From Streptomyces antimycoticus (GTDB lineage: Bacteria > Actinomycetota > Actinomycetes > Streptomycetales > Streptomycetaceae): DNA of 64,000 bases. Under the pieces are notes generated by a model that did no database searches, was not told the origin of the DNA, and worked only from the letters and a program-made list of their open reading frames with translations. The stretch is taken from NCBI RefSeq assembly GCF_005405925.1, contig NZ_BJHV01000001.1, positions 2,666,001-2,730,000 of the forward strand. The letters are read 5' to 3'. Shown here one piece after another: positions 5,421-48,600 of this stretch (the first letter of the stretch is position 1; the number at the start of each line of letters is the position of its first letter). The position numbers were made by a program, and so were the translations under genes.

Positions 5421-6866
5421 TCAGATGATGCCGAAGAGGAGACCGGCGCCGAGCACCACCAGGGAGGTGAGCACCGCCCATTTCACGGTGAACCGGGTGT
5501 GGTCGCCGAATTCGACCTTGGCCATGCCGACGAGCACGTAGACCGCGGGGACCAGCGGGCTCGACATGTGCAGGGCCTGTCCGACGAGCGAGGCGCGGGC
5601 GATCTCCAGCGTGGAGACCCCGTGGGCGGCTCCGGCCTCGGCGAGGATCGGCACGATGCCGAAGTAGAAGCCGTCGTTGGACATGAAGTAGGTGAGCGGG
5701 ATGGACAGCACGCCGGTGACGATGCCCATCTGCGGGCCCATGCCCTCGGGGACGCCGTCGACCAGCCAGCGGGCCATGTGCTCGACCATGCCGGTGCCGG
5801 TGAGGACGCCGGTGAAGACGGCGGCGGCGAAGACCATTCCGGAGACGTTGACGACGTTCTCGGCGTGTGCGGCGACACGGGCCTTCTGGTCGGTCATCTG
5901 CGGGAAGTTGACGGTGAGCGCGACGGCCGCGGCGAGCAGGAAGAGGACCGGGATCGGCATGGTCTCGGTCACCATCAGGGCGAGGAGAGCGATGGTGAGG
6001 GCCGCGTTGAACCAGTAGAGCTTGGGGCGCAGGGTGGCGCGGTTGGGGTCGAGGCCCTTGAACTCGTCGCCGTCCGAGGAGTCGGGGGCGTCCGAGGCGC
6101 CGGAGCCGTTCGGGGACGGGGCCTCCGCGTCGGCGCCGGAGCCCGCGCCGCCGGTCATGGCGGCCTTGCCGCCCTTGGCCCCCTTGCCGCCGGAGCCCGC
6201 GCCGACCAGCACCTGCTCGGGGTCGCCCGCGGTGACCTCGTCCAGCGTCAGCACGCCCAGCCGCTTGCGCTCCCGCAGACCGAGGCCGTAGGAGAGGGCG
6301 ATCACGAAGAGCAGACCGGCGGCGAGGGCCGGGATCATCGGCACGAAGATGTCGCTGGCGTCGACCTTGAGCGCGGCGGCGGCGCGGGCGGTGGGGCCGC
6401 CCCAGGGCAGCGTGTTCATCACGCCGTTGGCCATGGCCGCGACACCGGTCATCACCACCAGGCTCATCTTCAGCCGCCGGTAGAGCGGCACCATCGCCGA
6501 CACGGTGATCATGAAGGTGGTGGAGCCGTCGCCGTCGAGCGAGACGATCGCCGCGAGGATCGCGGTGCCGACCACCACCCGCATCGGGTCGGCCTTGCAG
6601 AACCGCAGGATGACCCGGACGATCGGGTCGAAGAGGCCGACGTCGATCATCACCCCGAAGTAGATGATGGCGAACATCAGCATGGCGGCCGTGGGTGCCA
6701 GTTCGCCGACGCCCTTGAGGACGTAGTCCCCGAGGTGCGCCCCCTTCCCGACAAGCACACAGAACAGCGCGGGGATGAGCACCAGGGCGCCCATCGGGGA
6801 CATCTTCTTCATCATGATCAGGACAAGGAATGTCCCGATCATGACGAAGCCGAGGATGGTCAGCAT
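5421..6866 (-). CDS. CitMHS family metal-citrate/proton symporter
   Basis: A 481-residue membrane protein of the citrate-Mg2+/Ca2+:H+ symporter family. It has about 12 helices in two halves joined by a glycine-rich, acidic cytoplasmic linker (about residues 220-270). Family sequences visible are DGDGSTTFMITVSAMVPLYR and the reentrant-like FMSNDGFYFGIVPILAEAG region near residue 400. It probably imports citrate complexed with divalent metal. The upstream 128 nt contain an AT-rich tract and a GAGG ribosome-binding site before the ATG. The MFS gene follows after 3 nt. Confidence 0.88.
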   Translation of the reverse strand: MLTILGFVMIGTFLVLIMMKKMSPMGALVLIPALFCVLVGKGAHLGDYVLKGVGELAPTAAMLMFAIIYFGVMIDVGLFDPIVRVILRFCKADPMRVVVGTAILAAIVSLDGDGSTTFMITVSAMVPLYRRLKMSLVVMTGVAAMANGVMNTLPWGGPTARAAAALKVDASDIFVPMIPALAAGLLFVIALSYGLGLRERKRLGVLTLDEVTAGDPEQVLVGAGSGGKGAKGGKAAMTGGAGSGADAEAPSPNGSGASDAPDSSDGDEFKGLDPNRATLRPKLYWFNAALTIALLALMVTETMPIPVLFLLAAAVALTVNFPQMTDQKARVAAHAENVVNVSGMVFAAAVFTGVLTGTGMVEHMARWLVDGVPEGMGPQMGIVTGVLSIPLTYFMSNDGFYFGIVPILAEAGAAHGVSTLEIARASLVGQALHMSSPLVPAVYVLVGMAKVEFGDHTRFTVKWAVLTSLVVLGAGLLFGII

Positions 6867-26072: not shown

Positions 26073-27179
26073 TCAGAGCCGGGTCAACCGGTCGGGCCCC
26101 TCCGGGGCATACCCGATCGGGTCGTCCGGCTCATGCCAGTGGAGGGCGAAGCGGTGGCCCGCGCGGTACGCCTCGAGGCCGGCGCGGCAGTACGCCACCA
26201 TGTCGTCCGGCAGCGCGTCCAGCGGGAACCAGCCGAGCTCGGAGCACTTCTCCGGCTCCCGATTGACGGGCTCGAGCCCGCTCTCCCGTCCTGCCTCCGC
26301 CTCGAAGAACCACCCCGTACGGGCCGCCCCCGTGGGCGCCTTGTGCTGCAGCACAAGGACGACCCGCACCTCGTTTGGGCCCAGGGTGAGGCCGATCTCC
26401 TCGGCCGTCTCGCGGAGCATCGCGGCGCGGACGTCCTCGCCGTCCTCGACATGTCCGGACGGGGCGTGCAGCAGCCCATCCGCATAGCCGGTGTTGGCAC
26501 GGCGGGCGAGCAGAACCTCATCGCCGCGGCGCAGGATCAGATGGACGTCCACGATCTCGGTATGGCGCCGGGCCGGCGCGAGGTCGGCCACCAGGGCATA
26601 CCGCTCGTCGCGCACGACCCGCCCCCACAGCGCCGCGTCCGGCGCGAGCTGCTCGACCGACAGCCGCTCCGTCACCGGCCCGACCAGCGCGGACAGCTCG
26701 GCGGCCGGCAGCCCGACGGGGTCGGACTCGCCCCACCGCCCCTCGATCAGCACCAGCCGCCCACCCGGCCGCAGCAGCCGGACCCACCGGCGCAGCACCG
26801 CCTGCCGGTCCGGCAGCATCCACAGCAGATGCCGGACCAGGACGACATCGAAGCTCCCCTCCCCCACGGGCGGCTCCGCCGCGTCCCCGACGAGCACGGT
26901 GGCCCCCGTCCCGCCCAGCTTCGCCCGCGCCAGCTCGACCATCCGGGGCGAGCGATCGACCCCCGTCACCCGGTGCCCCCACTCGGCCGCGAGCAGCGCG
27001 AGGCTCCCCGTGCCACAGCCCAGGTCCAGCACATCCCCGGCCCGCTCGGGCAGCCACCCCCGCAGCCGCGCGGCCCACGCCTCCCGCACGGCCGGATCGC
27101 GCAGCCCATGATCCGGCTCATTGTCGAAGTCCGCGGCGGCGGCGTCCCAGTAAGCGGTGGTCGAGGTATCGGCGCACAT
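26073..27179 (-). CDS. SAM methyltransferase-NUDIX hydrolase fusion
   Basis: A 368-residue two-domain protein. Residues 1 to about 200 form a class I methyltransferase: motif I is VLDLGCGTGSLALL (about 50), then GVDRSPRMVELA and LVRHLLWMLPDRQ. Residues from about 215 form a NUDIX domain, with the box recognisable around GHVEDGEDVRAAM and RETAEEIG. One chain therefore could both methylate a small molecule and hydrolyse a nucleoside diphosphate derivative; the substrates are unknown. No frameshift is needed to join them. Confidence 0.85.
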   Translation of the reverse strand: MCADTSTTAYWDAAAADFDNEPDHGLRDPAVREAWAARLRGWLPERAGDVLDLGCGTGSLALLAAEWGHRVTGVDRSPRMVELARAKLGGTGATVLVGDAAEPPVGEGSFDVVLVRHLLWMLPDRQAVLRRWVRLLRPGGRLVLIEGRWGESDPVGLPAAELSALVGPVTERLSVEQLAPDAALWGRVVRDERYALVADLAPARRHTEIVDVHLILRRGDEVLLARRANTGYADGLLHAPSGHVEDGEDVRAAMLRETAEEIGLTLGPNEVRVVLVLQHKAPTGAARTGWFFEAEAGRESGLEPVNREPEKCSELGWFPLDALPDDMVAYCRAGLEAYRAGHRFALHWHEPDDPIGYAPEGPDRLTRL

Positions 27180-28523: not shown

Positions 28524-28594
28524 CCGCTCAGCGTGCCAAGGTCCGTCCTCCACCGCAGCCGCTTTATCGCTGAACGGCTCGGTTGGTCGGTCTG

Positions 28595-28610
28595 TGGTGC
28601 GTAGGCACCA
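28595..28610 (+). promoter_or_regulatory. Operator-like near-palindrome, copy 1
   Basis: TGGTGCGTAGGCACCA: the same 16-mer as copy 2 with one changed base, which breaks the perfect symmetry. It sits at the upstream end of the leader. Confidence 0.5.
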
Positions 28611-28693
28611 GGACAGGTGCGTGGCTGGTCCGGGTGCACCAGGGGAAGACGGCGGCGGGAGACGATGCCCGGCGGGGCGCCGGAAGGAAGGGT

Positions 28694-28722
28694 GGGAATG
28701 CGCGTGAATCCCGCGCATTCCC
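28694..28722 (+). promoter_or_regulatory. Leader hairpin, copy 1
   Basis: GGGAATGCGCG (28694-28704) pairs perfectly with CGCGCATTCCC (28712-28722) across a 7-nt loop. It lies 29 nt before the MFS start, where it could affect mRNA stability or translation. The identical hairpin is in copy 2. Confidence 0.6.
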
Positions 28723-28751
28723 CCTGCCTGACGGTGTCTGGAAGGACGTCC

Positions 28752-30176
28752 ATGTCCCTAGCTGTAGCTTCCCCGGTCCGCATCGGGAGGCTGTCGATCG
28801 GTGCCCTCGGCATCTTGGCGCTCGCCCTCGGCACTCTGCAGTCGGTGGTGGAGCCAGCGCTCCCGCAGCTCCAACGTGAGCTGGGGGTCAGCCCTTCCGA
28901 AGGGGCATTGATCGGCAACACCCTGCTCATCACCGGCGCGGTCATCACACCCGTCGCGGGCAAACTCGGCGACCGCTACGGCGGAAAGCGGGTGCTGATA
29001 TGGCTGATGGCCGTGGTCTCGGCCGGTGGTGTGCTGGCGAGCCTCGCGCCGGACCTGCCGGTGCTGTTGCTCGGTCAGATATTGCAGGGCGTCATGGTGG
29101 GCGCGCTGCCCCTCTCCTTCATCCTGGTGCGCAAAAACCTCCCCGCACGCGAGTCACAGGTGGCGATCGGGGTGGTCATGGCGCTGTTCACGGGTGGCGG
29201 CATGGTGGGAACGCTGATCGCCGGACCGCTCTCGGAAGAGCTGTCCTGGCATTGGATGTTCGCGCTGCCGACCATCGCGATCATCGCGACGACGTTGGTC
29301 CTGATGCGGCTGATGCCGCATGATCCGCCGATCGCATCGGACGAGAGGATCGACTGGCCGGGCGTGGCTCTGCTGAGCGGCGCGTTGCTCGCGTTCATGA
29401 TCGGGCTCGTGCGGGTGACGGGCGACGGTCTGCCGCCCCTCGCGGTCGTCGCCCTCACCCTTCTCGTGGCCGCCCTCGCGACCGCATGGGTCGTCGTCGA
29501 GCGCCGGGCGGCCTCGCCGATGGTCGATCTGCGCATGCTGGCCAAGCCCGCGATGTGGCATTCGTGCGTGCTCACCTTGGTCGTCACCACCAGCTTCGGG
29601 ATGGTGGCCTTTCTGCTGCCGCAGATGTTCGCGATATCGGCCCACGGGTACGGCTTTGGACTCAGCACCACCGACATCGGACTGTTCCTGCTGCCGGGTG
29701 CCATCGCCGGGGCGGTCAGCGATTCGGTCGGCGGGGTCGTGGCGCGGCGTTTTGGTCTGCGTGCCGTGCTCGTCGGGGGTGCCGTCGTCACTGCGGCCAC
29801 CACGATCACCCTGGCGTCGCTGCACACCGCGGCCTGGCAGCTCGTCCTCGCGAAGGCGCTGACCGCGATCGCCGCGGGCGTGGCCGGCACGGCGTTGCTC
29901 ACCCGCGCCGCCGCCGCCGTCGACACCGGGGACACCGGCATCGCCACCAGCCTGCTCGTGGTGACGCGCGTGATCGGTGTCGCCCTGGGCTCTCAGGTCG
30001 GCGGCGCGATTCTCGACTCCGGGGCCGACTCGAAGACGGGCCTGCCGACCGAATCGGCCTTCGTCACGGGTTTCGTCACCGCCGGTCTCGTCGCCGCGGT
30101 GTCACTGCTCATTGTCCGCATCACGAAGATCCGCAGCACGCAGATCCGCAGCACGCAGAATGGAGCCCAGGCATGA
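28752..30176 (+). CDS. MFS drug exporter, 14-helix DHA2 type
   Basis: A 474-residue transporter with 14 predicted helices. The DHA2 signature is visible as GKLGDRYGGKRVL in the loop after helix 2 and in GQILQGVMVGALPLSF. It should export a drug or natural product in exchange for protons. ATG 28752 follows GAAGGA; an in-frame ATG at 28698 inside the duplicated leader would add 18 residues. The stop overlaps the monooxygenase start (ATGA), so the two are coupled. The C-terminus contains a 15-bp direct repeat (IRSTQIRSTQ). Confidence 0.9.
   Translation: MSLAVASPVRIGRLSIGALGILALALGTLQSVVEPALPQLQRELGVSPSEGALIGNTLLITGAVITPVAGKLGDRYGGKRVLIWLMAVVSAGGVLASLAPDLPVLLLGQILQGVMVGALPLSFILVRKNLPARESQVAIGVVMALFTGGGMVGTLIAGPLSEELSWHWMFALPTIAIIATTLVLMRLMPHDPPIASDERIDWPGVALLSGALLAFMIGLVRVTGDGLPPLAVVALTLLVAALATAWVVVERRAASPMVDLRMLAKPAMWHSCVLTLVVTTSFGMVAFLLPQMFAISAHGYGFGLSTTDIGLFLLPGAIAGAVSDSVGGVVARRFGLRAVLVGGAVVTAATTITLASLHTAAWQLVLAKALTAIAAGVAGTALLTRAAAAVDTGDTGIATSLLVVTRVIGVALGSQVGGAILDSGADSKTGLPTESAFVTGFVTAGLVAAVSLLIVRITKIRSTQIRSTQNGAQA
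30133..30162 (+). repeat. Tandem 15-bp repeat at the MFS gene 3' end
   Basis: Two copies of ATCCGCAGCACGCAG encode IRSTQ twice at the C-terminal tail. Confidence 0.75.
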
Positions 30177-31396
30177 CATCTACCGGTCTGTCGAAGGACG
30201 CGCGTACCCCCGCCAAGCGCACGGTCCTGATCTCCGGGGCCAGTATCGCCGGGCCCGCGCTGGCGTACTGGCTGCACCGGTCCGGATGCGCGGTCACCGT
30301 GGTGGAGAAGGCGGACGCGTTGCGCGCCGGTGGTTACCCGATCGACATCCGCGGTACCGCGATCGAGGTGGTCCGGCGGATGGGGATACTGCCGCGACTG
30401 CGGGACGCGCACATCGACTCGCGCCGCTGCACCTTTCTCGACGCCGATGGCGGCGAAGTGGCCTCGCTCAGCCCGAGCGCCGTTGCCGGCGGTGTCGAGG
30501 GACAGGACCTCGAAGTGCGGCGCGGGGATCTGGCGGCGAGCCTGTACGCGCTGGTCCGCGACGATGTGGAATTCCTGTTCGGCGACTCCATCGACACCCT
30601 CGACCAGTACGGGCAAGGGTTCGACGTGACGTTCCGCAGTGGGCAACGGCGCACGTTCGACTTGGTGGTCGGCGCCGACGGGATGCACTCCCAGACCCGG
30701 GAGACCCTGTTCGGCCCCGAGGAACGGTTCCACCGCTACCTCGGCTACTGCTTCGCCATCTTCACCATGCCGAACACCTTCGGGCTCTCCCGCGAGGTCA
30801 TGATGTGGAACACCCCGGGGAAGGCCGCGGCCCTCTACGCCGTCGGGGAAAACGACGAGCTGCACGCCTTCCTGAACTTTCACCAATCGGAGCCGCCGCT
30901 CGACGCCCTCCGGAACCCCGACGCCCAGCGGGACCTGGTGGCCACGGTCTTCGCGGACGCGGGATGGGAGGTCCCTCGCGTGGTCGACGCCCTGCGCGAC
31001 GCGGATGACCTGTTCTTCGACACGGCCGGTCAGATCCGCATGCCCCACTGGTCCAGCGGCCGCGTCGCGCTCGTCGGCGACGCCGCGTACGCACCCTCGT
31101 TCCTGACCGGACAGGGCTCGAGCCTCGCGCTGGTCGGTGCGTACATGCTGGCCGACGCCGTGGCCTCGCACCGGGATCACACCGCGGCCTTCGCCGCCTA
31201 CGAGCACGGCGTTCGCGAGTTCGTCGCCATGAATCAGGCACTGGTCGACAAGGGTGGGGCCACGCTCTTCCCCACCACCGCGGAGGCGCTGGAGCAGCGC
31301 AACACCCGGCTGCGTGGCCTCGTCACCCTGCCCTCCGCGCCGGCCCGGCCGGCCCACTCGGCCCTTACGCTGCCCGCATTCGCCCCGGTGCCGTGA
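30173..31396 (+). CDS. FAD-dependent monooxygenase (PF01494 type)
   Basis: A 407-residue flavoprotein hydroxylase. The N-terminal FAD fold is LISGASIAGPALAYWLHRSG, then VVEKADALRAGGYPIDIRG. The DG motif appears as VVGADGMHSQTR (about residue 165) and the second FAD motif as VALVGDAAYAPSFLTGQG (about 295). This group includes polyketide tailoring hydroxylases and antibiotic-inactivating enzymes (TetX-like). Coupling to the exporter suggests either tailoring of the PKS product or resistance. It converges on the response regulator gene with only 7 nt between stops if the latter's frame is repaired. Confidence 0.88.
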   Translation: MTSTGLSKDARTPAKRTVLISGASIAGPALAYWLHRSGCAVTVVEKADALRAGGYPIDIRGTAIEVVRRMGILPRLRDAHIDSRRCTFLDADGGEVASLSPSAVAGGVEGQDLEVRRGDLAASLYALVRDDVEFLFGDSIDTLDQYGQGFDVTFRSGQRRTFDLVVGADGMHSQTRETLFGPEERFHRYLGYCFAIFTMPNTFGLSREVMMWNTPGKAAALYAVGENDELHAFLNFHQSEPPLDALRNPDAQRDLVATVFADAGWEVPRVVDALRDADDLFFDTAGQIRMPHWSSGRVALVGDAAYAPSFLTGQGSSLALVGAYMLADAVASHRDHTAAFAAYEHGVREFVAMNQALVDKGGATLFPTTAEALEQRNTRLRGLVTLPSAPARPAHSALTLPAFAPVP

Positions 31397-31403
31397 CCTC
31401 GGA

Positions 31404-32095
31404 CTACGACAGGGGGTCGGCCCCGCCGTCGGGGCGGCGTGGGCCAGGCCCGTCCGGTAGGCGATGACGACGAGTTGGGCCCGGTCACGGGCCTCCAGCT
31501 TCGTCATGGCGCGCTGCACATGGGCGCGGACGGTGAAGGGGCTGAGGAACATCTGCTCGGCGATCTCCTGGTTGGACAGACCGGTCGCGACCAGTGCCAC
31601 CATCTCGCGTTCGCGCGGGGTGAGCACGGCGAGCTGTTCGGCGTGGCGGGGCGGGGCGCCGGCCGGTGTGGCCAGGAAGCGGGCGACCAAGGAGCGGGTC
31701 GCGGCGGGGGACAGCAGCGTGTCGCCGTCGGCGATCGTCCGCACGGCGTCCAGCAGGTCCGCGGCCCCGATGCCCTTGCCGATGAAGCCACCGGCCCCCG
31801 CGCGCAGCGCCTGAGCGACGTATTCGTCGGTCTCGTACGTGGTGAGGATCAGGATGCGGCTGGCACGCAGTTCCGGGTCCGCGCAGATCTCCGACGTGGC
31901 GGCGAGACCATCCACTTCCGGCATGCGGATGTCCATGAGCACCACGTCCGGGCGCAGTTGCCGGGTGAGTCTCACCGCCTCCCTGCCGTCGGCGGCCTCG
32001 CCGACCACGGTGATGTCGTCGGCGGAGTCGAGGAGCAGCCGGAAGGCCCCGCGCAGCAGGGCCTGATCGTCGGCGAGCAGCACTCGGAGCGTCAC
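31404..32095 (-). CDS. NarL/LuxR-type response regulator, apparent frameshift near 3' end
   Basis: The receiver domain (residues 1-120) has LLADDQALLRGAFRLLL, phosphoacceptor Asp in DVVLMDIRMPEVDG and a Lys in FIGKGIGAADLL. The LuxR HTH is at about 150-210 (LTPREREMVALVATGLSNQE and IAEQMFLSPFTVRAHV). As written the frame has no stop and runs on antisense through the monooxygenase gene to 29993. A sixth base in the run at 31412-31416 (five G on the + strand) gives an immediate TAG at 31404-31406 and a 230-residue protein. It starts at a GTG overlapping the repaired kinase stop (GTGA) and probably controls the exporter genes. Confidence 0.85.
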
Positions 32096-33431
32096 GGCGC
32101 ATCCCCGGCCTCTCCGTCGCCCGTCCGTACGTCGCCCGTCCGTCCGTCGCCTGTCGCCGCGTCGGCCATCTGCCCCTCGGGGTGGTCGCTCCGTCGGTGC
32201 TCCGCGTCGTGTCCTTGGCGGGCGGGAGGGGCAGGTCGGTGGAGACGAGGAAGCCGCCCTCCGGGCGCTTGCCCGCGGAGAGCTGTCCCCCGACCGCGGT
32301 GGCGCGTTCCCGCATCCCGATCAGACCGTAACCGGGCGGACGTTCCGGCATCGTGGGCGCACTCCGTCCCGTGGTCGCATTCGGTCCCGTACGGCCGCCC
32401 CTTCCGTCGTCGGCGACGGTGATGGTCACGCGATCGCGGTTCCAGGCGAGGCCCACCCGGGCGCTACCGGTACCGGCGTGCTTGGTCACGTTGGTCAGGG
32501 CCTCCTGGACGATGCGGTAGGCGGTGAGGTCCACTCCCGGCGACAGCGGCCTGGCCGTGCCCTCGTGGTGTACCGACACCTCCAGACCCGCGCGGCGGAA
32601 GGACTCGAGGAGCGTGGGAAGCCGGGACAGCCCGGGCGCCGGATCGCCGGGCGTGGGCGCGTCCCCGGACTGACGCAACAGACCGACCGTGGCCCGCAGT
32701 TCGTCGAGTGCGTGGCCGGTGGTCTCGACAAGCTCCGTCAGGCTCTTGCGGGTCTGCTCCGGGCGGGCGTCGAAGAGGTGGGCGGCGACCGAGGCCTGCG
32801 CGTTGGCCAGGGTGATCTGATGGGCCACGAGGTCGTGCAGTTCCCGGGCGATGCGCACCCGTTCCTCGGCCACTCTCCGGCGCGCCTCGCTCTCCCGGCT
32901 CTTCTCGGCCCGCTGGGCCCGCTCCTCCACGGCCGCCAGATAGGCCCGCCGGTTGTGCACCGCGTGCCCGAGTACGGCGGCCACCAGCGGGAACGCCGCC
33001 ACCGCCGCCACCCTGCTCGCGTCCTTCCACGAGAGGGCCCCGAACAAGGGGGTGGAGGCGACCAGCAGCGCCACGGAGGTGAGCGACACCGCGCTCGTCG
33101 CGTGCCGTTCGGTGCGCGCGGTGAGCGAGTAGGCGGTGATCACGGCGGGGGCCACGATGAGCGGGCTCAGCAGGAGGTCCGAGAACGGCACCAGCACACC
33201 GCTCGTGGTGGTGACCGCCATGGCCGCCAGGGGCGCCCGGTGCCGCACCGGCAGCACGGCACAGGACGTCACGGCGATGAGGTAGGCGGCGGCGGGCGGC
33301 AGTGACAGCGTGCTGCCGTCCTCCTTCAGCGCGCCGCCGAGCAGACAGAGCGCGAACGCCGTCGCGGTGATCGCTGCCTCCCGCCACCACGTGCCGCGTG
33401 ATCGCGGGCCACCGCCACCTGTGTTCGTCAT
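32092..33431 (-). CDS. NarL-type sensor histidine kinase, apparent frameshift near 3' end
   Basis: It has four or five N-terminal helices (to about residue 150) without a sizeable extracellular domain, so it senses at or in the membrane. HisKA_3 carries the phosphoacceptor in ARELHDLVAHQ. The HATPase domain shows EALTNVTKHAG, VADDGRGG and GYGLIGMRERA. The catalytic core is complete. After RSTDGAT the frame shifts; one extra base at the run 32179-32182 restores a C-terminal tail ending GDGEAGDAP with a TGA at 32092-32094 overlapping the regulator's GTG. Without it the frame runs uselessly into the regulator gene. Confidence 0.85.
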
Positions 33432-33438
33432 GGCCGGC

Positions 33439-35727
33439 TCAGCCCCGGTGCCGGCCGGCGGGGAGCGGCGCGACCGCCGCGTCCGGCACGGTCGCGGCGG
33501 CCGGGACATGCCTGGTCAGTGCCTCACCCTCGATATCCACATTCGGCAGCACACGGTCGAGGATACGGGGCAGCCACCAGGCCCGGTGGCCGAGCAGCGC
33601 CAGGACCGCGGGCACGATCGCCATCCGGACCACGAAGGCGTCGAAGAGGACGGCGGCGGCCAGGCCGACGCCCATCGTCTGGATGGTCGGGCTGCTCATC
33701 CCGACGAATCCGGCGAACACGCTGATCATGATGATCGCCGCCGCGGCCACCACCCGTCCGCTGTGCCGGAAGCCGCTCACGATCGCCTCGCCGGGGGACG
33801 CCCCATGGACGTGGGCCTCCCGCATCCGGGTGAGGAGGAAGACCTCGTAGTCCATGGCGAGGCCGAAGACGATGCCGATGATGAGAATCGGCATCAGCGA
33901 CATGACCGGTCCGGTCTGCTCGATGCCGAGCAGATCCGCCGCCCAGCCCCACTGGAAGACGGCGACGAGGACACCGAAGGCGGCACCCACCGACAGCAGG
34001 AAGCCGAGCGCGGCCTTGACCGGGACCAGGACCGAGCGGAAGACCACCAGCAGCAGGAGCAGCGCCAGGCCGATGACCACGGTGAGATAGGGGATGAGGG
34101 CGTCGGACATGGCTTCGGAGATGTCGATGTTCATCGCGGTGGTGCCGGTCACCAGGATCGCGGCGCCCGTGTCGGCCTCGACGCCGGAGACCGCGCCCCG
34201 GATCGCGTGCACCAGGTCCTTGGTCTCGCCGCTGTTCGGCGCGGTCTTGGGGACAGCGGTGAGGATGGCCGTGTCCTTGGTCCGGCTGAGCGCCGGATCA
34301 CCGACCGAGGCGATCCCGTCCACTCCCCGTAGGGTCGTGACGACCTGGTTTGTGGCGGCCCGGGTGTCCGCGGACTTCGAGGCGTCCACAACCACGGTCA
34401 ACGGGCCGTTGAAGCCGGGGCCGAAGCCTTCGGACAGCAGGTCGTAGGCGCGGCGCTGGGTGGTCTCCACCGACTTGGACTCGTCTCCGGGCAGCCCGAG
34501 TTCGAGGCTCAGCGCCGGCACGGCGACGGCGCCGAGGCCGAGTCCGGCGATCATCAGCACGGCCACCGGCCGGCGCAGCACGAACCGCGCCCAGCGGGTG
34601 CCTATGCGCTTCGCCGGCTTTGTCGCGATGGGTTGCCGGTCGCCTGCGGGTTCGTCGTGGCTGGTCGCGTAGTTCTCCGCGCCCCTTCGGGGCGCTCCGG
34701 CAGCCTTGCGGACGGCACGGGGCAGGACCCGGCGGCCGAAGAGGCCGAACAGCGCGGGGACCAGGGTCAGTGCGACGAGCACGGCGAGGGCCACGGCGCC
34801 CGCGCCGCCCATGCCCATCTTGGTGAGTTCGGGGATTCCGACGACCCCCAGCCCGACCAGGGCGATGAAGACGGTGGCGCCGGCGAAGACGACGGCGGAT
34901 CCGGCCGTGCCCACCGCCCGTCCGGCGGCCTCCTCCGGCTCGCTGCCCTGGGCGCACTCGTCACGGAAGCGGGAGGTGATGAAGAGGGCGTAGTCGATGC
35001 CAACCGCCAGCCCCAGCATCAGCGCCAGGATGGCGACGGTGGATGTCAGGCCCAGCGGCACGGCCAGCGCGGAGACCAGCCCGAAGGCGATGGCCACGCC
35101 CAACAGGGCGGTCAGCAGCGACAGTCCGGCCGCGACCAGCGACCCGAGGGCGAGGACCAGCACCACGGCCGCCACCGCCACGCCGATGAGCTCCGTCGTA
35201 CCGCCCGGTTCCTCTTCCGAATCCAGGGCCGAGCCGCCGACCTCCACGGTCAGCCCCGCGTCCCGGGCCTGGTTCGCGGCGTCCTCGAGGGCGCTCTTCG
35301 TCGACTCGGTCAGGTCGACGGCGCCCTCGGTGTAGGTGATCGTGGAGTAGGCGATGGTGCCGTCCTCGCTGACCGCGCCGCTCTCATAGGGGTCGGTGGT
35401 CGACGCGACCTGATCGCCCCCGTCCAGCGAGCCGAGCGCGTCCTGGACGGCCGCCTTGTTCTCCCTGGCCGTCACCCGCTGCCCGTCCGGTGCCTGGAAC
35501 ACCAAACGGGCCTCGGCGCCCTGGGAGTTGCTCTCGGGGAAGCGCTCGTCCAGCAGGTCGAACGCCTTCTGCGATTCGGTGCCGGGCATGGAGAGGTCCT
35601 CTTCCTCCCCGGCCGGTGCCATGGCGGCGGCGGCCAGGGCCAGCACCAGGGCGCCCAGCCACAGACCACCCACGAGCCGGCGCCGCCGGAAGGCCCACCG
35701 TCCGATCCGGTAAAGAAATGTCGCCAC
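33439..35727 (-). CDS. MMPL family exporter of the biosynthetic cluster
   Basis: A 762-residue RND/MMPL protein with 12 helices in two blocks. Block 1 has GLAVGIDYALFITSRFRDE; block 2 has GLAMDYEVFLLTRMREAH. Two extracytoplasmic domains follow helices 1 and 7. Such proteins export lipids, polyketides or drugs by proton motive force. The start is a GTG at 35727 placed 11 nt downstream of the duplicated leader (copy 2). The longer open frame upstream reads through that leader. The kinase starts 7 nt past its stop, giving the operon order exporter, kinase, regulator. Confidence 0.9.
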   Translation of the reverse strand: MATFLYRIGRWAFRRRRLVGGLWLGALVLALAAAAMAPAGEEEDLSMPGTESQKAFDLLDERFPESNSQGAEARLVFQAPDGQRVTARENKAAVQDALGSLDGGDQVASTTDPYESGAVSEDGTIAYSTITYTEGAVDLTESTKSALEDAANQARDAGLTVEVGGSALDSEEEPGGTTELIGVAVAAVVLVLALGSLVAAGLSLLTALLGVAIAFGLVSALAVPLGLTSTVAILALMLGLAVGIDYALFITSRFRDECAQGSEPEEAAGRAVGTAGSAVVFAGATVFIALVGLGVVGIPELTKMGMGGAGAVALAVLVALTLVPALFGLFGRRVLPRAVRKAAGAPRRGAENYATSHDEPAGDRQPIATKPAKRIGTRWARFVLRRPVAVLMIAGLGLGAVAVPALSLELGLPGDESKSVETTQRRAYDLLSEGFGPGFNGPLTVVVDASKSADTRAATNQVVTTLRGVDGIASVGDPALSRTKDTAILTAVPKTAPNSGETKDLVHAIRGAVSGVEADTGAAILVTGTTAMNIDISEAMSDALIPYLTVVIGLALLLLLVVFRSVLVPVKAALGFLLSVGAAFGVLVAVFQWGWAADLLGIEQTGPVMSLMPILIIGIVFGLAMDYEVFLLTRMREAHVHGASPGEAIVSGFRHSGRVVAAAAIIMISVFAGFVGMSSPTIQTMGVGLAAAVLFDAFVVRMAIVPAVLALLGHRAWWLPRILDRVLPNVDIEGEALTRHVPAAATVPDAAVAPLPAGRHRG

Positions 35728-35765
35728 CTGTAGATCACTCCAGACGCCGTCAGGCAAGGGGAATG

Positions 35766-35794
35766 CGCGGGATTCACGCGCATTCCCACCCTTC
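35766..35794 (-). promoter_or_regulatory. Leader hairpin, copy 2
   Basis: Identical in stem and loop to the copy 1 hairpin; approximate span. It lies about 35-65 nt before the MMPL start codon. Confidence 0.55.
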
Positions 35795-35870
35795 CTTCCG
35801 GCGCCCCGCCGGGCATCGTCTCCCGCCGCCGTCTTCCCCTGGTGCACCCGGACCAGCCACCCACCTGTCC

Positions 35871-35886
35871 TGGTGCGTACGCACCA
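35871..35886 (-). promoter_or_regulatory. Perfect 16-bp palindrome, operator candidate
   Basis: TGGTGCGTACGCACCA is fully self-complementary. Its place at the upstream end of both leaders suits a binding site for a dimeric regulator such as the cluster's LuxR-type response regulator, which is inference. Confidence 0.55.
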
Positions 35887-35931
35887 CAGGCGGGGACGGG
35901 GCCATCCCCCGTCCCCGCCCGGAGGAGCTGT

Positions 35932-39600: not shown

Positions 39601-42600
39601 CGGGCTCACCGCGGAGCACATCGGTGGGCGACCAGTCGAGGTACGGGGCCAGGGCCGCCTCGCAGTCGGCGACGCGCGCGGCGAAGACGGGCGAGACATC
39701 GAGCAGTTCGGCCGCCATCCCGGCCCACGCCGCGTCCTGACCGGGGAAGACGAAGACCACCGGGCCGCGCTCGGACGCCGTGCCGCGCACCGCCGCGGGA
39801 TCCGAGGTGCCCTCGGCCAGGGCTGCCAGGCTTCCGCGCAGCGCCACGGAGTCCTCGCCGACCAGCACCGCCCGATGTTCGAAGGCGGCACGGGTCGTGG
39901 CCAGGGAATGCCCGATGTCCACCGGATGCGCCCCCGGATGGGCATCCAGATGTGCGAACAGTTTCGCGGCCTGGGCGCGCAGCGCTCCGGCCGACTTGCC
40001 CGCCAGCGGCCATGCCACCGGCCCGTCCCATACCGGATCCGGGACCGGGCCGGTGGGCGCCGGGGCCTGCTCCAGTACGGCGTGGGCGTTGGTCCCGCTC
40101 ATGCCGAACGCGGAGACCGCGGCCCGCCGCGGACGGCCGAGGTCGGGCCACGGTGCCGCCTCGGTCAGCAGCTCGACCGCGCCCGAGTCCCAGGCGATAC
40201 GGGAGGACGGCTCGGCGGCGTGCAGCGTCTTGGGCAGGACGCCGTGCCGCATGGCCATCACCATCTTGATGACCCCCGCGACACCGGCGGCCACCTGGGT
40301 GTGTCCGATGTTGGACTTGACCGAGCCGACCAGCAGCGGCGGGTTGTCGCCCCGGTCCTGGCCGTAGGTGGCCAGCAGCGCGTGTGCTTCGATCGGATCG
40401 CCCAGTGCGGTGCCGGTGCCGTGTGCCTCGACCACATCGACGTCGGACGGCGCGAGACCGCTGTTGGCGAGGGCCTGGCGGATGACCCGCTGCTGCGCGG
40501 GCCCGCTCGGCGCGGTCAGCCCGTTGGAGGCGCCGTCGGAGTTCACCGCCGACCCGCGCACGACCGCCAGCACCTGGTGGCCGTTGCGGACCGCGTCCGA
40601 GAGCCGCTCCAGCACCAGGAGACCGGCGCCTTCGGCGATGCCCATGCCGTCCGCCGACTCGGCGAACGCCTTACTCCGTCCGTCGGGCGCCATGACCCGG
40701 TGCCTGCTCAGCGAGACCAGCAGGTCCGGTCCGGTCAGCACGGTGGCACCGCCCGCGAGGGCCAGGGTGCTCTCCCCCGAGCGCAGCGACTGGCACGCCA
40801 TGTGCAGCGCGACCAGGGACGCCGAGCAGGCGGTGTCCACCGTCACGGTCGGCCCGTGGAGGTCGAACAGATAGGCCAGGCGGCCCGAGAGCACGCTGGG
40901 GAGCGTGCCGGTGAGCTGGTAGCCGTCGGAGTCCGCCGACACCCCCGTGCCGTAACTCTGGGCGGTCGCCGAGACGAAGGTGCCGGTCAGGCTGGACCGC
41001 AGGGACGCGGGGTCGATCCCGGCGCGTTCGAACGCCTCCCAGGTGAGCTCCAGCAGCATCCGCTGCTGCGGGTCCATCGAGACCGCCTCCCGCGGGGAGA
41101 TGCCGAAGAACGCCGCGTCGAACTCGCCCGCGCCGTCGACGAAGCCACCCGCCGCCGAGTAGGTCGTGCCCGTCCGCTCCGGGTCGGGGTGGTACGCGCT
41201 CGCGTCCCAGCCGCGGTCGGCGGGCAGCGGGGAGATGGCGTCCGTGCCCTCGGTCAGCAACTCCCACAGGTGCTCGGGCGAGCGCACCCCGCCGGGGAAA
41301 CGGCAGCTCATTCCGATGATCGCGATCGGCTCCGCGTCGGCCGCCCCGGCTCCCGTACCACCGGCCGTGATCGCGGCCGGTACGGCGCTCCCCCGCCGCT
41401 CGTCGGCCTCGCCGCCGAGCTCGGTCCACAGATGACCGGCCAGGGCTTCCGGTGTCGGATGGTCGTAGATCAGGGTCGAGGGCAGGCTCAGGCCCGTCCG
41501 TTTGCGAAGGCCATTGCGCAACTGACCGGCGGTCAGGGAGTCGAAGCCCATGTCCTTGAACGTCCGCCCGCCCCCGGCCGCCGCCGGACCGGCGAGCCCG
41601 AGCACCGAACCCACCTGCTCACGGACGAGCTGGAGCAGGGTGTCCCGGGCCCGGTCGGCCGTCAGCCCGGTCAGCAGGCCGGAGCCGCCACCGGTGGCGG
41701 CGGCCCGGCGGACGGAGCCGACCGGGACCAGGCCGCGGAGGACGGCGGGCACGGTGCCACGCGCCCGCAGGGCGGCCTGGTCGACGCGGGTGGCGAGGAC
41801 GGACGCCTCGCCCACCGCGCCCGCGGCGTCGAAGCAGGCCAGTCCCTGGTCGACGGTGAGCGTCGGCAGCCCGGCCGCGGCGATCCTGCGGAGCTGAGCG
41901 GCGCTCAGCCCGGCGGACATACCGCCGCTCTGCGGCCAGAGCCCCCAGCCGATGGACAGGCCCGCGAGCCCCGCGGCGGTCCGCCGCTGCGCCAGCGCGT
42001 CCAGGAACGCGTTGGCCGCGGTGTAACCGGCCTGCCCCGCGTTGCCGAGGACACCGAACACCGACGAGAACATCACGAACGCGGTCAGACCGTGGTCGCG
42101 GGTCAGTTCATGCAGATGCCAGGCGCCGTCCAGCTTCGGACGGAACACCGTGTCCAGCCGATCGGGGGTCAGCGCCCCGACCAACCCGTCGTCGAGCACA
42201 CCGGCGGCGTGCACCACACCGGTCAGCGGATGCTCGGCCGGGATCGCCGCCAGCAGGGCGGCCACGGCCGCGCGGTCGGAGACGTCGCAGGCGGCGGCGG
42301 TCACCCGCGCGCCCTGCCCGGTCAGTTCGGCCACCAGTGCGTCGGCGCCCTCGGTGTCGGCGCCGCGACGGCCGGCCAGCACCAGGTGGCGCACCCCGTG
42401 CGCGGTGACCAGGTGCCGGGCCACCAGCGCGCCGAGACCGCCCAGCCCGCCGGTGACCAGCACGGTGCCGTCACCACCCCATACGGTGCCCGGCGCCGAC
42501 GGGTCCGGGGCGTCGACGGAAGCCAGACGGGGTATCAGCAACGCACCGGCGCGCAAGGCCAGTTCGGGCTCGTCGCAGTCCAGCGCCGCACGCAGTGTCC

Positions 42601-45600
42601 CGGTGGCGGCCGCCACCGGATCCCCGGTCTCGGCGGGGTCGAGGTCGAGCAGGACGAACCGGTCGGGGCTCTCCTGCCGGGCCGACCGCACCAGCCCCCA
42701 CACCGCGGCCGCCACCACGTCCGGGGCCGTACCGGGGGTGGTGGCCACCGCGCCACGGGTCACGAACACCACGCGAGCGGGCCGACTCCCGCCGGTCTCG
42801 TCCATGTCGTCGGCGTCGCCTGAGTCGTCGGCGTCGTCGGCGTTCAGGTGGTGCCGCAGCGTGTCGAGCACGGACGCGGTGACCGCACGGACCGCCTCCG
42901 GCACCGGCACACCGGCCGGTGCGGCGACCGGGACCAGCACCGCCTCCCCGGCGCTCACCGGGTCGTGCCCACCGGCCTCCGGTACCGGGGCGGGCAGCCA
43001 GTCCAGGCGCAGCAGCGGCCGCGCCGCCATGGTCTGTGTGGTGTGGACGTCCGGCGTACGCAGCGTCAGCGTGCGCGCCGACACCACCGGATGGCCCTCG
43101 GTGTCCACCGCGCTCAGCGTGACCGTGTCCTCGCCCGTCGCGCGCAGCCGCACCCGCAGCACCGACGCGCCCACGGCGTGCAGGGACACCCCGGACCAGG
43201 TCGACACCTCGGAGCGAGCCGAGGCCCGCGCCCCGCCGTCGGGCCCGGCCGACGACGCGAGGTGCAGCGCCGCGTCCAGCAACGCCGGATGGAGGCGGAA
43301 GGCATCGGCATCCTCGGCGATGTGCTCGGGGAGGACGACCTCGGCCAGCACCTCGTCTCCGGACCGCCAGACCGCCCGGACGGCCCGGAACGCCGGTCCG
43401 TAGGCGAGCCCGGCCTCGCGCCGCCGCTCGTAGAAGTCATCGAGGTCGACGGGTACGGCATCCGCGGGCGGCCACGCGGACCCGGCAGCGGCACCTTCGC
43501 CGGCGCCGGGCGTGCCCGGCGCGAGCGTGCCGGTGGCGTGCCGCGTCCAGGGCGCGTCCGGCGTGTCGGCGGGCCGTGCGTAGATGGCCAGGGTGCGTCG
43601 GCCGCCGTCGCCGGGGCCGCCGAGCGCGACCTGGATCCGCACACCGTCGTCGTCCCGCCCGGGCAGCACCAGCGGGGCGGCCAGGGTGAGTTCCTCGATA
43701 AGACCACAGCCGACCTCGTCGCCCGCGCGCACCGCCAGCTCGATGAATCCGGCGCCGGGGAAGGTCTTGTGACCGGCCACCACATGGTCGGCCAGCCACG
43801 GCCGCGCCGCCACCGACAGCAGTCCGGTGCACAGCACACCGCCGGTCTCGGGCAGCTCCACGACCGCGCCGAGCAGCGGATGTTCCACACCGCCGAGCCC
43901 GGCCGGGACCGCGCCCGCCGAGGCGCTGCCGACGGGCGCGGTCCAGTACCGCTCCCGCTGGAACGCGTAGGTGGGCAGCGCGACCCGGCGCGCTCCGGTC
44001 CCGGTGAACAGCTCGGCCCACCGCACCTGTACGCCCCGCACATACAGCCGGGCGGCCGCCGCCAGCGCGGTGGACTCCTCGTCGCGGTCCTTGCCCAGCA
44101 GCGGCACGGCCTCCACGCGCGCCACATCGGGCAGGGCGTCCTGCGCCAGCACCGACAGCGTGGCGTCCGGGCCCAGTTCGAGGAAGGTGTGCGCACCGGC
44201 CCGCGCCGCGGCGCCGACCGCGTCGGCGAACCGCACCGTCATCCTGACGTGGCGCACCCAGTAGTCGGGGGTACGGATCCGCTCCGCGGCGATCCGCTCA
44301 CCGGTGACGGTCGAGACGATCGGGATGCGCGGCTCGCCGAAGGCCAGGCCCTCGACGACCGCGCGGAAGCCGTCCAGCATCGGCGTCATCAGCGGGGAGT
44401 GGAACGCGTGGCTGACCCGCAGCCGGGTGGCCTTGCGACCGTCGGCCGCGAACCGGTCCGCGATGGCCCAGGCCGCGTCGGCCTCCCCGGACACCACCAC
44501 CGCCTCGGGGCCGTTGACCGCGGCGAGTCCCACACGGTCCTCGGAGCCGGTGAGCAGCGCGGCCACCTCGTCCTCGGTGGCCCGCAGCGCGACCATGGCG
44601 CCGCCTTCGGGCAGCGCCTGCATCAGCCGTCCGCGGGCGGCGACGAGGGTGCACGCGTCGGGCAGGGACAGCACCCCGGCCACATGGGCCGCCGCGATCT
44701 CGCCGACCGAGTGCCCGACCAGCAGATCCGGCGCCGTCCCCCATGATTCCACCAGCCGGTAGAGGGCCACTTCGAGGGCGAACAGCGCGGGCTGGGCGTA
44801 TTCGGTGCGGTTCAACAGCTCCGCGTCGTCGCCGAACACCGCCTCCCGCAGCGGCCGTTCCAGCTCGCCGTCCAGCAACGCGCAGACCTCGTCCCACGCC
44901 GCCGCGAACACGGGGAACCGACCGTGCAGTTCGCGCCCCATGCCCAGCCGCTGGGCGCCCTGACCGGCGAACAGCAGCACCAGCGGGCCGGGGTCCCCCG
45001 CCATGCCCTCGGCCACCTTCATGGGCACCGGCCGCGCGTCGCCGTCTCCCGTACGGTCCGTCGCGGCCAGGAGGACCGCTCGATGCTCCAGCTCGGAACG
45101 GGTCGTCGCGAGCGAGTAGCCGATGTCGGCCGCCGCCGCGCCGGTGTCGGCCACGAACGCGGCCAGCCGGTCCAGTTGCGCCTCCAGTGCCGCCTCGCTA
45201 CGAGCCGACACCGGCCACGGCACCACGTCCGGCCCGGTCTGCGACCGCGGCGCGCCCGAGGGCCGCTCGGCGGTCTCATCGGTACGGTCCCGTGGCGGCT
45301 GCTCGATGATCACATGCGCGTTGGTGCCGCTGATCCCGAACGACGACACGCCCGCGCGGCGCGGCCGCTCGGCCGGTGGCCACAGGGTGGCCCCGGTGAG
45401 CAGCTCCACCGCCCCCGCCTCCCAGTCCACCTGCGACGACGGCGCGTCCACATGCAACGTGCGCGGCAGTACGCCGTGCCGCATCGCCAGGATCATCTTG
45501 ATGACGCCCGCGACACCGGCGGCGGCCTGCGTATGCCCGATGTTGGACTTGAGCGACCCCAGCAGCAGCGGGCGGTCCGGGTCCCGGTCCTGCCCGTAGG

Positions 45601-48600
45601 CGGCGAGCAGCGCCTGGGCCTCGATCGGGTCGCCCAGCCGGGTGCCGGTGCCGTGCCCCTCCACCGCGTCCACATCCGACGGGAGCAGTCCGGCACCGGC
45701 CAGGGCCTGGCCGATCACCTGCCGCTGCGAGACTCCGTTGGGCGCGGTCAGGCCGTTCGACGCGCCGTCGGAGTTGACCGCGGAGCCGCGCAGGACGGCC
45801 AGCACCCGGTGGCCGGCCCGGGTCGCGTCGGAGAGCCGTTCCAGCACCAGGACGCCCACGCCCTCGGACCAGCCGGTGCCGTCCGCGGCCTCCGCGTACG
45901 CCTTGCAGCGGCCATCGGGCGACAGGCCGCCCTGCCGGGCGAACTCCACGAAGATGCCGGGCTCCGACATGATGGTGACACCGCCGGCCAGCGCCAGGGA
46001 GCACTCGCCATTGCGCAGCGCCTGCGCCGCCAGATGCAGCGCCACCAGCGACGATGAGCAGGCCGTGTCGACGGTCAGCGCGGGCCCGCGCAGCCCCAGG
46101 GCGTAGGCGATCCGGCCGGACAGCACGCTCGGCGAGGTGCCGGTGAGCAGATATCCCTCCGCGGCGCCGGAGCTGTCCTTGAGGCGCGGACCGTAGTCCT
46201 GGGCCATCGCGCCCATGAACACGCCGGTCCGGCTGCTGTGCAGGGACGACGGGGCGATCTCGGCCCGTTCGACCGCCTCCCAGCTCATCTCCAGCGCCAG
46301 CCGCTGCTGGGGGTCCATGGCTTCCGCCTCACGCGGCGAGATCCCGAACAGCGTCGCGTCGAAACGGTCCGCGTCGTAGAGGAATCCGCCCGCCCTGCCG
46401 GTCGCCGTCGGCTCCGGCGCCCATCCCCGGTTGGCGGGCAGGTCGGAGATGGCGTCAACTTCGCCCGACACCAGGTCCCACAGCCCCTCGGGCGAGTTCA
46501 CCCCGCCCGGGTAGCGGCAGGCCATGCCCACGATGACCACCGGGTCGTCCGCCGGGACGGCGCGGGGTGCCGGGGACGCGTCGCCGGTCGGCGGGGCGGT
46601 GAGCTCCGTGGCCAGATGGTCCGCGCAGGCGTCGGGCGTGGGATGGTCGAACAGCACGGTGTTGGGCACCCGCAGCCCGGTCGCGGCCTTCAGCCGGGTC
46701 GCCAGCTCCACCGTCATCGCCGAGTCGAAGCCCAGCTCCTTGAAGGACCGCGCGGGTTCACCCGCTCCGCGGAGGCGAACCCCAGCACCACGGCGGTCTC
46801 CGTGCGCACCAGCCGCGCCAGGTCGGGGCGGGTCCACGAAGTGCCGGGTTCCGCACGCTCCGGCTCCGGTTCCGGTTCCAGGTCGGCGGCGTGTCCTGTT
46901 ACGGCTGCAACGGCGTCCGGCACCCCGGCGGGCTCCGGGAGCCAGTACCGCTCCCGCTGGAATCCGTACGTCGGCAGGGCCACCCGCCGGGCGTCGGTCC
47001 CGGCGAACGGCCGCGCCCAGTCGACCGGCACCCCTCGGACGTACATCTCGGCCAGAGCGCTCAGGAACCGGTCCATCCCGCCCAGTTCGCGCCGCAGTGT
47101 GCCGACGGCGAGCGCCCGGACGTCGGCCGCGTCGATGGCGTCGTGCACCGCGGGGGTCAGCACCGGGTGGGAGCTGACCTCGACGAAGACCCGGTGGCCC
47201 TGGCCGAGCAGTGCCCGGACGGCCGGTTCGAAGGCGACGGTCTGCCGCAGATTGCGGTACCAGTACCCGGCGTCCATACCGGTGGTGTCCAGCCACTCGC
47301 CGGTCACCGTGGAGAAGAACGGCACCTCGGCCCGGCGCGGGGCGATGCCCTCCAGCGCGGCCGACAGCTCCTCGCGCACCCGCTCCACCTGCGCCGAATG
47401 CGAGGCGTAGTCCACCGCGATCCGCCGCACCCGCACATCCGCGCCCGCGAGTTCCTCGAACAGCTCGTCCAGCGCCTCCAGTTCACCGGAGACCACCACC
47501 GAGCCGGGCCCGTTCACGGCCGCGATCGACACCCGGCCGTCCCAGCGGCCCAGCCGTGACTCGGCCTCGGCGCGCGGCAGTGCCACCGACAGCATGCCGC
47601 CCGCTCCCGAGAGGCGGCGGGCGATGGCCTGGCTGCGCAGCGCCACCACGCGGGCCGCGTCCTCCAGCGAGAGCGCACCGGCCACGCAGGCCGCCGCGAT
47701 CTCGCCCTGGGAATGGCCGAGCACCGCGTCCGGGACCACCCCGTGCGCCTGCCACACCGCCGCGAGGGAGACCATCACCGCCCAGGAGGCGGGCTGGACC
47801 ACATCCACCCGTTCCAGCGACGGGGCGCCCTCGGCCTGGCGCAGCACCTCCGGCAGCGACCAGTCCACATGGGGCGCGAGCGCGGCGGCGCAGTCGGCCA
47901 GCCGCTCGGCGAAGACCGGGGACTCCGCCATCAACTGGACGCCCATGCCCGCCCATTGGGAACCCTGGCCGGGGAAGACGAACACCGTCCGGCCCTCGAT
48001 GTCGGCCACCCCCCGCACCACGCCCGGCGCGGGCTCGCCCTCGGCCAGCGCCGCCAGCGCGTCCAGGGCCTCCGGCCGGTCCGGCGCGAGGACGACGGCA
48101 CGGTGGTCGAACGCGGTGCGCGTGGTGGCCAGCGAGAAGCCCACGTCCACCGGATCGAGCCGGTCGTTCTCCGCCAGCTGGGAGGCGAGGCGGGCGGCCT
48201 GCGCGCGCAGCGCGTCCCGGGTCCGGCCCGACAGCGGCCACGGCACGGTGCCACCCGCCACACGGGCACCGTCCGCCGGGCCCGGGCCCATGTCAGTCGG
48301 CTCGGTGGCGGACACCACCAGATGGCAGTTGGTGCCGCCCATGCCGAACGACGAGACTCCGGCCAGGGCGCGGCCGTCGCGGTAGGGCCACGGGCGGGTC
48401 GCCGACACCACGTCCAGGTGCCACTCGTCGAAGCGGATCCGCGGATTGGGCCGCTGGAAGTTGAGGCTGGCCGGCAGCTCACCGTTCCGCAGCGACAGCA
48501 CGACCTTCAGGAGGCCCACGATGCCCGCGGCGCCCTCCAGGTGCCCCACGTTCGTCTTCGCCGAGCCGACCAGCAGCGGGCTGTCCGCGGCACGGTCGGC

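Follow-up and report, generated by a model that had tools for sequence, protein, structure and literature searches.

A duplicated putative promoter and 5′ UTR preceding two unrelated exporter operons in Streptomyces antimycoticus, and its association with a two-component system across Actinomycetota

Genes and Inverted Repeat of the Locus

The window, a stretch of 64,000 nucleotides from Streptomyces antimycoticus, contained two convergent gene units, each preceded by one copy of a long inverted repeat. The left copy (28592..28742, + strand) was located 5′ of an MFS-FMO unit, which encodes a DHA2-like MFS exporter of 474 aa (28752..30176, +; assigned by Pfam, with NCBIfam scores below the cut-off) and an FAD monooxygenase (FMO) of 407 aa (30173..31396, +; assigned by Pfam, PDB, and NCBIfam) whose best solved relative is the tetracycline destructase Tet(55). 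The right copy (35739..35889, − strand) was located 5′ of an MMPL-HK-RR unit. This unit consisted of genes encoding an MMPL exporter of 762 aa with a GTG start (33439..35727, −; Pfam), a histidine kinase (HK) with HisKA_3 and HATPase domains over a conserved 400 aa (32232..33431, −; Pfam and frame comparison), and a response regulator (RR) with REC and LuxR-type HTH domains over a conserved 225 aa (31421..32095, −; Pfam and ortholog comparison). The domain matches covered both the RR (PF00072, 9.1e-25; PF00196, 6.1e-19) and the adjacent kinase (PF07730, 9.3e-18; HATPase, 3.2e-9). A sequence-only reading of this DNA had described exporter, monooxygenase, two-component, and exporter genes bracketed by the copies and had called the two exporters unrelated, and the Pfam assignments (MFS_1 and MMPL, respectively) agreed on both points. 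Two further frames were observed upstream of the left copy, namely a dimethylargininase above its NCBIfam cut-off (NF045660; 24126-24902, −), roughly 12 kb away from the PKS frame, and a single frame with methyltransferase and NUDIX domains by Pfam (26073-27179, −).

The RR frame of the window (29993-32095, −) remained open for 700 codons and ran antisense over the FMO gene; 119 other RR frames, in which some genomes are counted twice and one frame is clipped by a contig end, measured 212-285 codons, mostly about 220-235. The RR of the nearest relatives stops after 231 codons, at a stop that is missing in the window and is preceded by a short length difference in a run of G+C. The HK frame (31485-33509, −) was also long, with 648 codons, whereas the median was 441 and the second-longest frame had 486, and overlapped the RR in another frame. 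Both overruns begin only after the conserved domains; sequencing errors or genuine decay could account for them. Regulation in this strain is uncertain because both frames overrun the stops of their relatives.

The repeat finder and alignment defined a clean repeat of 151 bp, which starts 2 nt before the 149-bp arms called earlier and has the same four mismatches; the inverted-repeat tool drew longer arms (28592-28755 and 35726-35889; 164 nt, 94%). The gap to the start codon was 9 nt on the left (ATG of the MFS gene, 28752) and 11 nt on the right (GTG of the MMPL gene, 35727), as had been read from the sequence, and homology between the copies ended immediately 5′ of the ribosome-binding site of the MFS gene. 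The next longest inverted repeat among those listed for a 13-kb region was 38 nt at 74%, and a chance origin of the repeat is therefore excluded. A genome-wide search, which had been proposed as a check for a multi-copy MITE, returned just these two copies in 11.17 Mb at E ≤ 0.001, with 40 of the 53 first-look candidates scored.

The sequence-only reading had regarded the repeat as a shared leader that was copied onto a second, unrelated transporter. The copying of a regulatory region is retained here; a merely transcribed leader is not, as the repeat also carries a putative operator pair and promoter, and it looks like a promoter plus 5′ UTR rather than a leader. Co-regulation of both exporter operons by the shared region is very likely.

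Putative Operator Pair and Core Promoter

Each copy contained, in order, two palindromes of 16 bp whose starts are 31 bp apart, a spacer of 20 bp, the hexamer ACGATG, a 66-nt hairpin, and a ribosome-binding site. Pattern searches placed the putative operator sites of the left copy at 28595..28610 (site 1, TGGTGCGTAGGCACCA, +) and 28626..28641 (site 2, TGGTCCGGGTGCACCA, +, 31 bp from site 1), and those of the right copy at 35871..35886 (site 1, TGGTGCGTACGCACCA, a perfect palindrome, −) and 35840..35855 (site 2, −). The pattern TGGT-N8-ACCA, N10-20, TGGT-N8-ACCA was found genome-wide only at the two repeat copies, and a more specific tandem pattern with up to three mismatches again matched only these copies in 11.17 Mb; the reversed controls gave no match in either search. 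Single operator sites were not enriched in the genome (184 matches vs. 218 in the reversed control, with one mismatch allowed). A genome-wide regulon of single sites was rejected because such sites are no commoner than the reversed control.

The same architecture was found in 140 distinct copies, to which 161 copies were reduced by merging identical sequences; some named loci and genus loci stem from the same genome. The two sites were spaced by 31 bp in 126 of these, by 30 bp in 7, by 32 bp in 6, and by 35 bp in 1, and ACGATG followed site 2 at 20 bp in 128 copies, at 19 or 21 bp in 6, and at 37 bp in 2, with none found in 4. Nineteen of the 24 half-site columns were conserved at 97% or more and the rest at 54-96%, including one G/A and one C/T position. 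Conservation across the 15 inter-site columns, in contrast, ranged from 46% to 98%, with 13 at 88% or less. The copies were gathered by similarity, which inflates overall conservation but not this contrast between half-site and inter-site columns. Across the 66 aligned MMPL leaders (of 73 MMPL-type copies), ACGATG was invariant.

By position, and on the left also by conservation, GACGAT within this conserved ACGATG motif (28661..28666, +, and 35815..35820, −) is a putative −10 element, although the assignment is weak and no convincing −35 element was recognized at the repeat promoter. If GACGAT is the −10 element, spacing alone would put the first transcribed nucleotide near 28673 (+) and 35808 (−), at the hairpin base, with the palindromes centered near −40 and −71 relative to it.

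Hairpin of the 5′ UTR

The hairpin was located by folding and covariation at 28674..28739 (+) in the left copy and at 35742..35807 (−) in the right copy. Pairing was retained in 88.6% of the cells vs. 26.8-64.9% in slid controls, and the covariation score was 0.190 vs. 0.007-0.083; the hairpin was drawn from folds of the same sequences, and these comparisons with slid controls are thus biased in its favor. None of 500 shuffles matched the real pairing or covariation, and two further measures were equalled by 21 and 34 of the 500 shuffles. A slide of −1 exceeded the drawn hairpin in two-sided changes (28 vs. 16 cells), and columns 53 and 75, which form one proposed pair, were unpaired in 42 of 64 cells. 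The mean folding z was −2.35 in the MMPL copies and −2.05 in the MFS copies that passed the motif and length filter (61 of 73 and 50 of 57, respectively). The putative 5′ UTR is structured and conserved, its base-pairing being kept with covariation.

Given this folding, the entire repeat might instead be transcribed as a leader, an RNA switch or attenuator that would respond to a drug or to stalled ribosomes and thereby control both exporters. Such a leader would account for the z of about −2.8 with which both window copies fold on the sense strand better than shuffles, for the mean folding z of the MMPL copies, and for the moderate covariation support of the hairpin portion. However, the antisense strands folded almost equally well (z of −2.1 and −2.6), and the most conserved columns of the repeat include the palindromic half-sites with their near-constant spacing. 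Loci with an ABC exporter, described below, retain the operator and CGATG, while their 5′ UTR, in those inspected, differs by eye from the MMPL/MFS type. Furthermore, possible leader peptides were not conserved among relatives, no U-run terminator was visible by eye, and Rfam at the gathering threshold had no match in the repeat. An RNA switch or attenuator is therefore considered unlikely, and a promoter with operators and a structured 5′ UTR remains the preferred description.

Several specific candidates were rejected. The leader peptide MRVNPAHSPCLT has an ATG that only the window and its nearest relatives possess; a peptide started at the ATG within ACGATG would have its frame broken by single-base indels in many relatives; exporter proteins extended N-terminally into the repeat are contradicted by the different frames that the MFS and MMPL genes use relative to it; and membership of an Rfam RNA or riboswitch family lacks a gathering-threshold match within the repeat. 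The only two Rfam matches at that threshold, both to ASpks (40316-40390 and 45548-45622), ran antisense to the large − strand PKS frame within which they lie, and they probably reflect conserved PKS coding sequence and no sRNA.

Distribution within Streptomyces

The arrangement had been thought unusual, but it is widespread in the genus. At least 72 of 392 genus genomes contained a repeat match at E ≤ 0.001, and at least 46 of 392 contained a strong copy (E < 1e-9). Two candidates were scored per genome, so that these counts are lower bounds, from which the cassette copy of genome G184 is absent. An RR ortholog with at least 83% identity was present in 45 of 392 genomes, a number complete down to these matches in order of E-value and separated by a clear gap from the next match at 69%. 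Both the RR ortholog and a strong repeat copy occurred in 43 genomes. The two genomes with the RR only (G184 and G061) had a weaker repeat copy at the cassette, and the 3 of 46 strong-repeat genomes without an RR ortholog were G177, where an MMPL start follows the repeat (L059), and G306 and G334, with remnants of 84 and 65 nt. The repeat of G334 had a more distant HK-RR (35% and 50% identity) nearby; together with locus L063, the repeat thus occurred beside more distant HK-RR pairs of about 35-44% and 50-54% identity.

Among 40 fetched genus loci, 24 contained two convergent copies within the fetched stretch (20 before MMPL and MFS, 4 before HK and MFS), 13 contained one copy before an MMPL gene, 1 contained one copy before an MFS gene, and 2 were not assigned. 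Four loci without an MMPL gene behind the repeat had the HK as the nearest recognized gene, 103-412 nt away. Flanking PKS, TE, and methyltransferase genes were found in only 4 of the 40 loci within about 6 kb per side, and a fifth (L072) had only a 50%-identical KS in its flank. Co-induction by the cluster product, as earlier suggested, was therefore not supported, and induction by a PKS product was rejected since the flanks (about 6 kb on each side only) are not conserved.

Two plasmid loci were also observed. A linear plasmid of Streptomyces sp. SAT1 (L003) carried the repeat, an MFS gene, and an FMO gene beside a MarR gene, with an RR neither annotated nor matched within the 12 kb examined. 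A plasmid of Streptomyces sp. NBC_01324 (L004) carried an isolated operator and promoter copy (6001-6111) before a gene for a small hypothetical protein, with no annotated exporter within the 12 kb examined.

Distribution across Actinomycetota and Exporter Families

Actinobacterial loci were also fetched by RR protein similarity alone, and the best 80 of at least 490 confirmed stretches reached Actinomadura, Nocardia, Micromonospora, Microbispora, Williamsia, Nocardioides, and other genera. An operator pair that matched at 22 or more of the 26 defined positions was present in 75 of these 80 loci (reversed controls reached 19-21). The exporter-HK-RR cassette with the same operator therefore recurs across Actinomycetota. 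The five loci without a pair included two with truncated records (L138, which starts 76 nt before the MMPL gene, and L166, which starts at the HK), two with scores below the threshold (L163 and L167, 19 and 20, respectively), and L151, which had no pair despite 6.7 kb upstream of the HK and whose record ends at the RR end.

The 75 loci held 101 distinct pairs, of which 52 preceded MMPL genes, in the putative promoter of the system's own operon, 39 preceded MFS genes, and 7 preceded ABC ATPase genes, while 2 faced the HK (L169 and L175; in the opposite reading, the pair of L169 faces an MFS-family protein) and 1 was unassigned (L127, where the MMPL gene is fragmented). Site 2 was located 105-118 nt from the start in MMPL genes, 103-108 nt in ABC genes, and 92-317 nt in MFS genes. 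In L158, L161, L165, L168, L171, L172, and L173, the pair stood before an ABC ATPase gene divergent from HK-RR. Pfam, applied to three of the divergent ABC loci, identified an ABC ATPase in L158, L161, and L163 and an FtsX permease in L161 and L163. A search of the accessible literature, largely other than subscription papers, found no description of this operator or cassette, and the operator sequence words returned nothing as a query.

A regulator other than the neighboring RR, such as a TetR- or MarR-type repressor encoded elsewhere, is quite unlikely to bind the palindromes. The half-sites are generic dyads that such a repressor could read, and the SAT1 plasmid has a MarR gene and no RR nearby. 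On the other hand, loci found by the RR alone almost always contain the operator pair, and the RR-operator association persists when the exporter family changes; gene adjacency alone would nevertheless yield this co-occurrence. It is extremely improbable that the repeat is a mobile element such as a MITE, or the border of an invertible segment, and stands before the two genes by chance: its inverted and near-identical copies would fit, but there are two rather than multiple dispersed copies in the whole genome, the distance to the MMPL start is almost constant (7-14 nt in 34 copies), the repeat is conserved between genera, a phage collection had no match to it (a phage origin was rejected on this ground), and the inner segment had the same orientation, with no case of inversion, in 5 genomes with common outer flanks.

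Direction of Copying and Similarity of Paired Copies

The MMPL ribosome-binding motif was kept in 26 of 57 MFS copies. Decayed or in-frame MMPL N-terminal codons were found between the repeat and the MFS gene in 9 of 57, after exclusion of L003, L052, L101, L114, and L117 from 14 flagged copies because their match was in the MFS N-terminus or covered a few codons only. As some MFS copies carry the ribosome-binding motif or first codons of the MMPL gene, the MMPL side is the most likely source and the MFS copy the acquired one. In the window, the right copy is accordingly the probable original.

Identity between paired copies of the same genome ranged from 51% to 100% over 25 genomes, for example 100% in L049, 98% in L044, and 96.7% in the window. 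A tree was built with 37 MMPL/MFS pairs once identical sequences had been removed, a step that left out L049 with its identical copies; its sequences are short and its deep branches poorly supported. Same-genome copies were exclusive sisters in 10 of the 37 pairs, with support of at least 90 in 8 of these, while the remaining pairs did not group in this way. The window and its four closest relatives formed one group of 10 sequences with a support of 79. These results suggest that same-genome copies are homogenized. Since the arrangement is common to the genomes, gene conversion or repeated recopying would best explain the sister pairs.

Regulatory Model and Relation to Known Systems

The architecture and its conservation point to a model that is considered probable, in which an autoregulated HK-RR system drives the MMPL-HK-RR operon and a copy of its promoter was captured, in inverted orientation, by the MFS-monooxygenase operon. 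Two dimers of the LuxR/NarL-type RR, the product of the third gene in the MMPL operon, would occupy the palindromes, which are separated by about three helical turns and lie adjoining and upstream of the −35 region, and would activate rather than repress transcription from the ACGATG promoter. The transcript would start at or near the foot of the stable hairpin, which takes up the 5′ UTR and would probably protect or standardize the message. The original target would be the autoregulated MMPL-HK-RR operon. Duplication would then have put the promoter before the convergent MFS-monooxygenase operon, and in several lineages the ribosome-binding site and first codons of the MMPL gene would have been carried along. 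Through this capture the regulon would have gained a second exporter and an enzyme that possibly modifies drugs. Some copy pairs may be kept alike by recurrent homogenization, presumably by conversion.

The best PDB match of the FMO was the tetracycline destructase Tet(55) (E of 9.9e-72), with a 6-hydroxynicotinate 3-monooxygenase nearly as close. Its match to the NCBIfam tet_destruct model (NF033476; 4.9e-75) reached 252.9 bits vs. a cut-off of 550, and two general FAD-binding NCBIfam families scored higher, also below their cut-offs. Because the FMO falls below the destructase cut-off, detoxification of a drug as an output of the regulon is offered only as a suggestion.

LiaRS and VraSR are autoregulated two-component systems with a membrane or cell-wall stress output. 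As in LiaRS, VraSR, and NarL-type systems, the RR of the locus combines REC with a GerE HTH, the kinase is of the HisKA_3 type, and the best solved relatives of the RR are VraR and NarL. The proteins nevertheless scored below the NCBIfam cut-offs of the named equivalogs (NarL, 139.6 of 250 bits; MadR, 139.5 of 300; MadS, 93.1 of 500; LiaS, 42 of 450). Unlike LiaRS, VraSR, and NarL, the system described here has a putative TGGTGC-N4-GCACCA operator in a 31-bp tandem, controls MMPL, MFS, or ABC exporters if the model is correct, and has had its complete putative promoter and UTR copied to a second operon. The 5′-terminal hairpins of bacterial mRNAs of the ompA type are stabilizing, and the hairpin of the repeat is likened to these by position, as it begins within a few nt of the predicted transcript start.

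A paralogous MMPL-HK-RR cassette was observed in the same genome (L181, G000:C1:5551500-5557500; identities of 60-62% for MMPL, 46% for HK, and 66-67% for RR), and the genome-wide pattern searches found no tandem operator there. Upstream of it was a different palindrome, CTACTG-N6-CAGTAG, of which about 0.3 are estimated to occur by chance in that length. This palindrome therefore gives no more than a hint of a separate operator for each RR.

A broader reading can be put forward tentatively, that of a transferable promoter module, made up of phased RR operators, a core promoter, and a 5′-terminal hairpin, with which one two-component system may recruit unrelated exporters by capture, its inverted copies being kept alike by recurrent gene conversion. 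If this holds, the regulon would be wired by copied, concertedly evolving promoters and not by independently evolved binding sites. For a two-component system that is associated with drug export across Actinomycetota, the locus provides a sequence-defined putative operator and a putative regulon of two promoters; both the inducer and the joint induction of an exporter and a destructase-like monooxygenase become directly testable. The leftover ribosome-binding sites and first codons would constitute an unusually clear record of a regulator that gained a target by whole-promoter copying.
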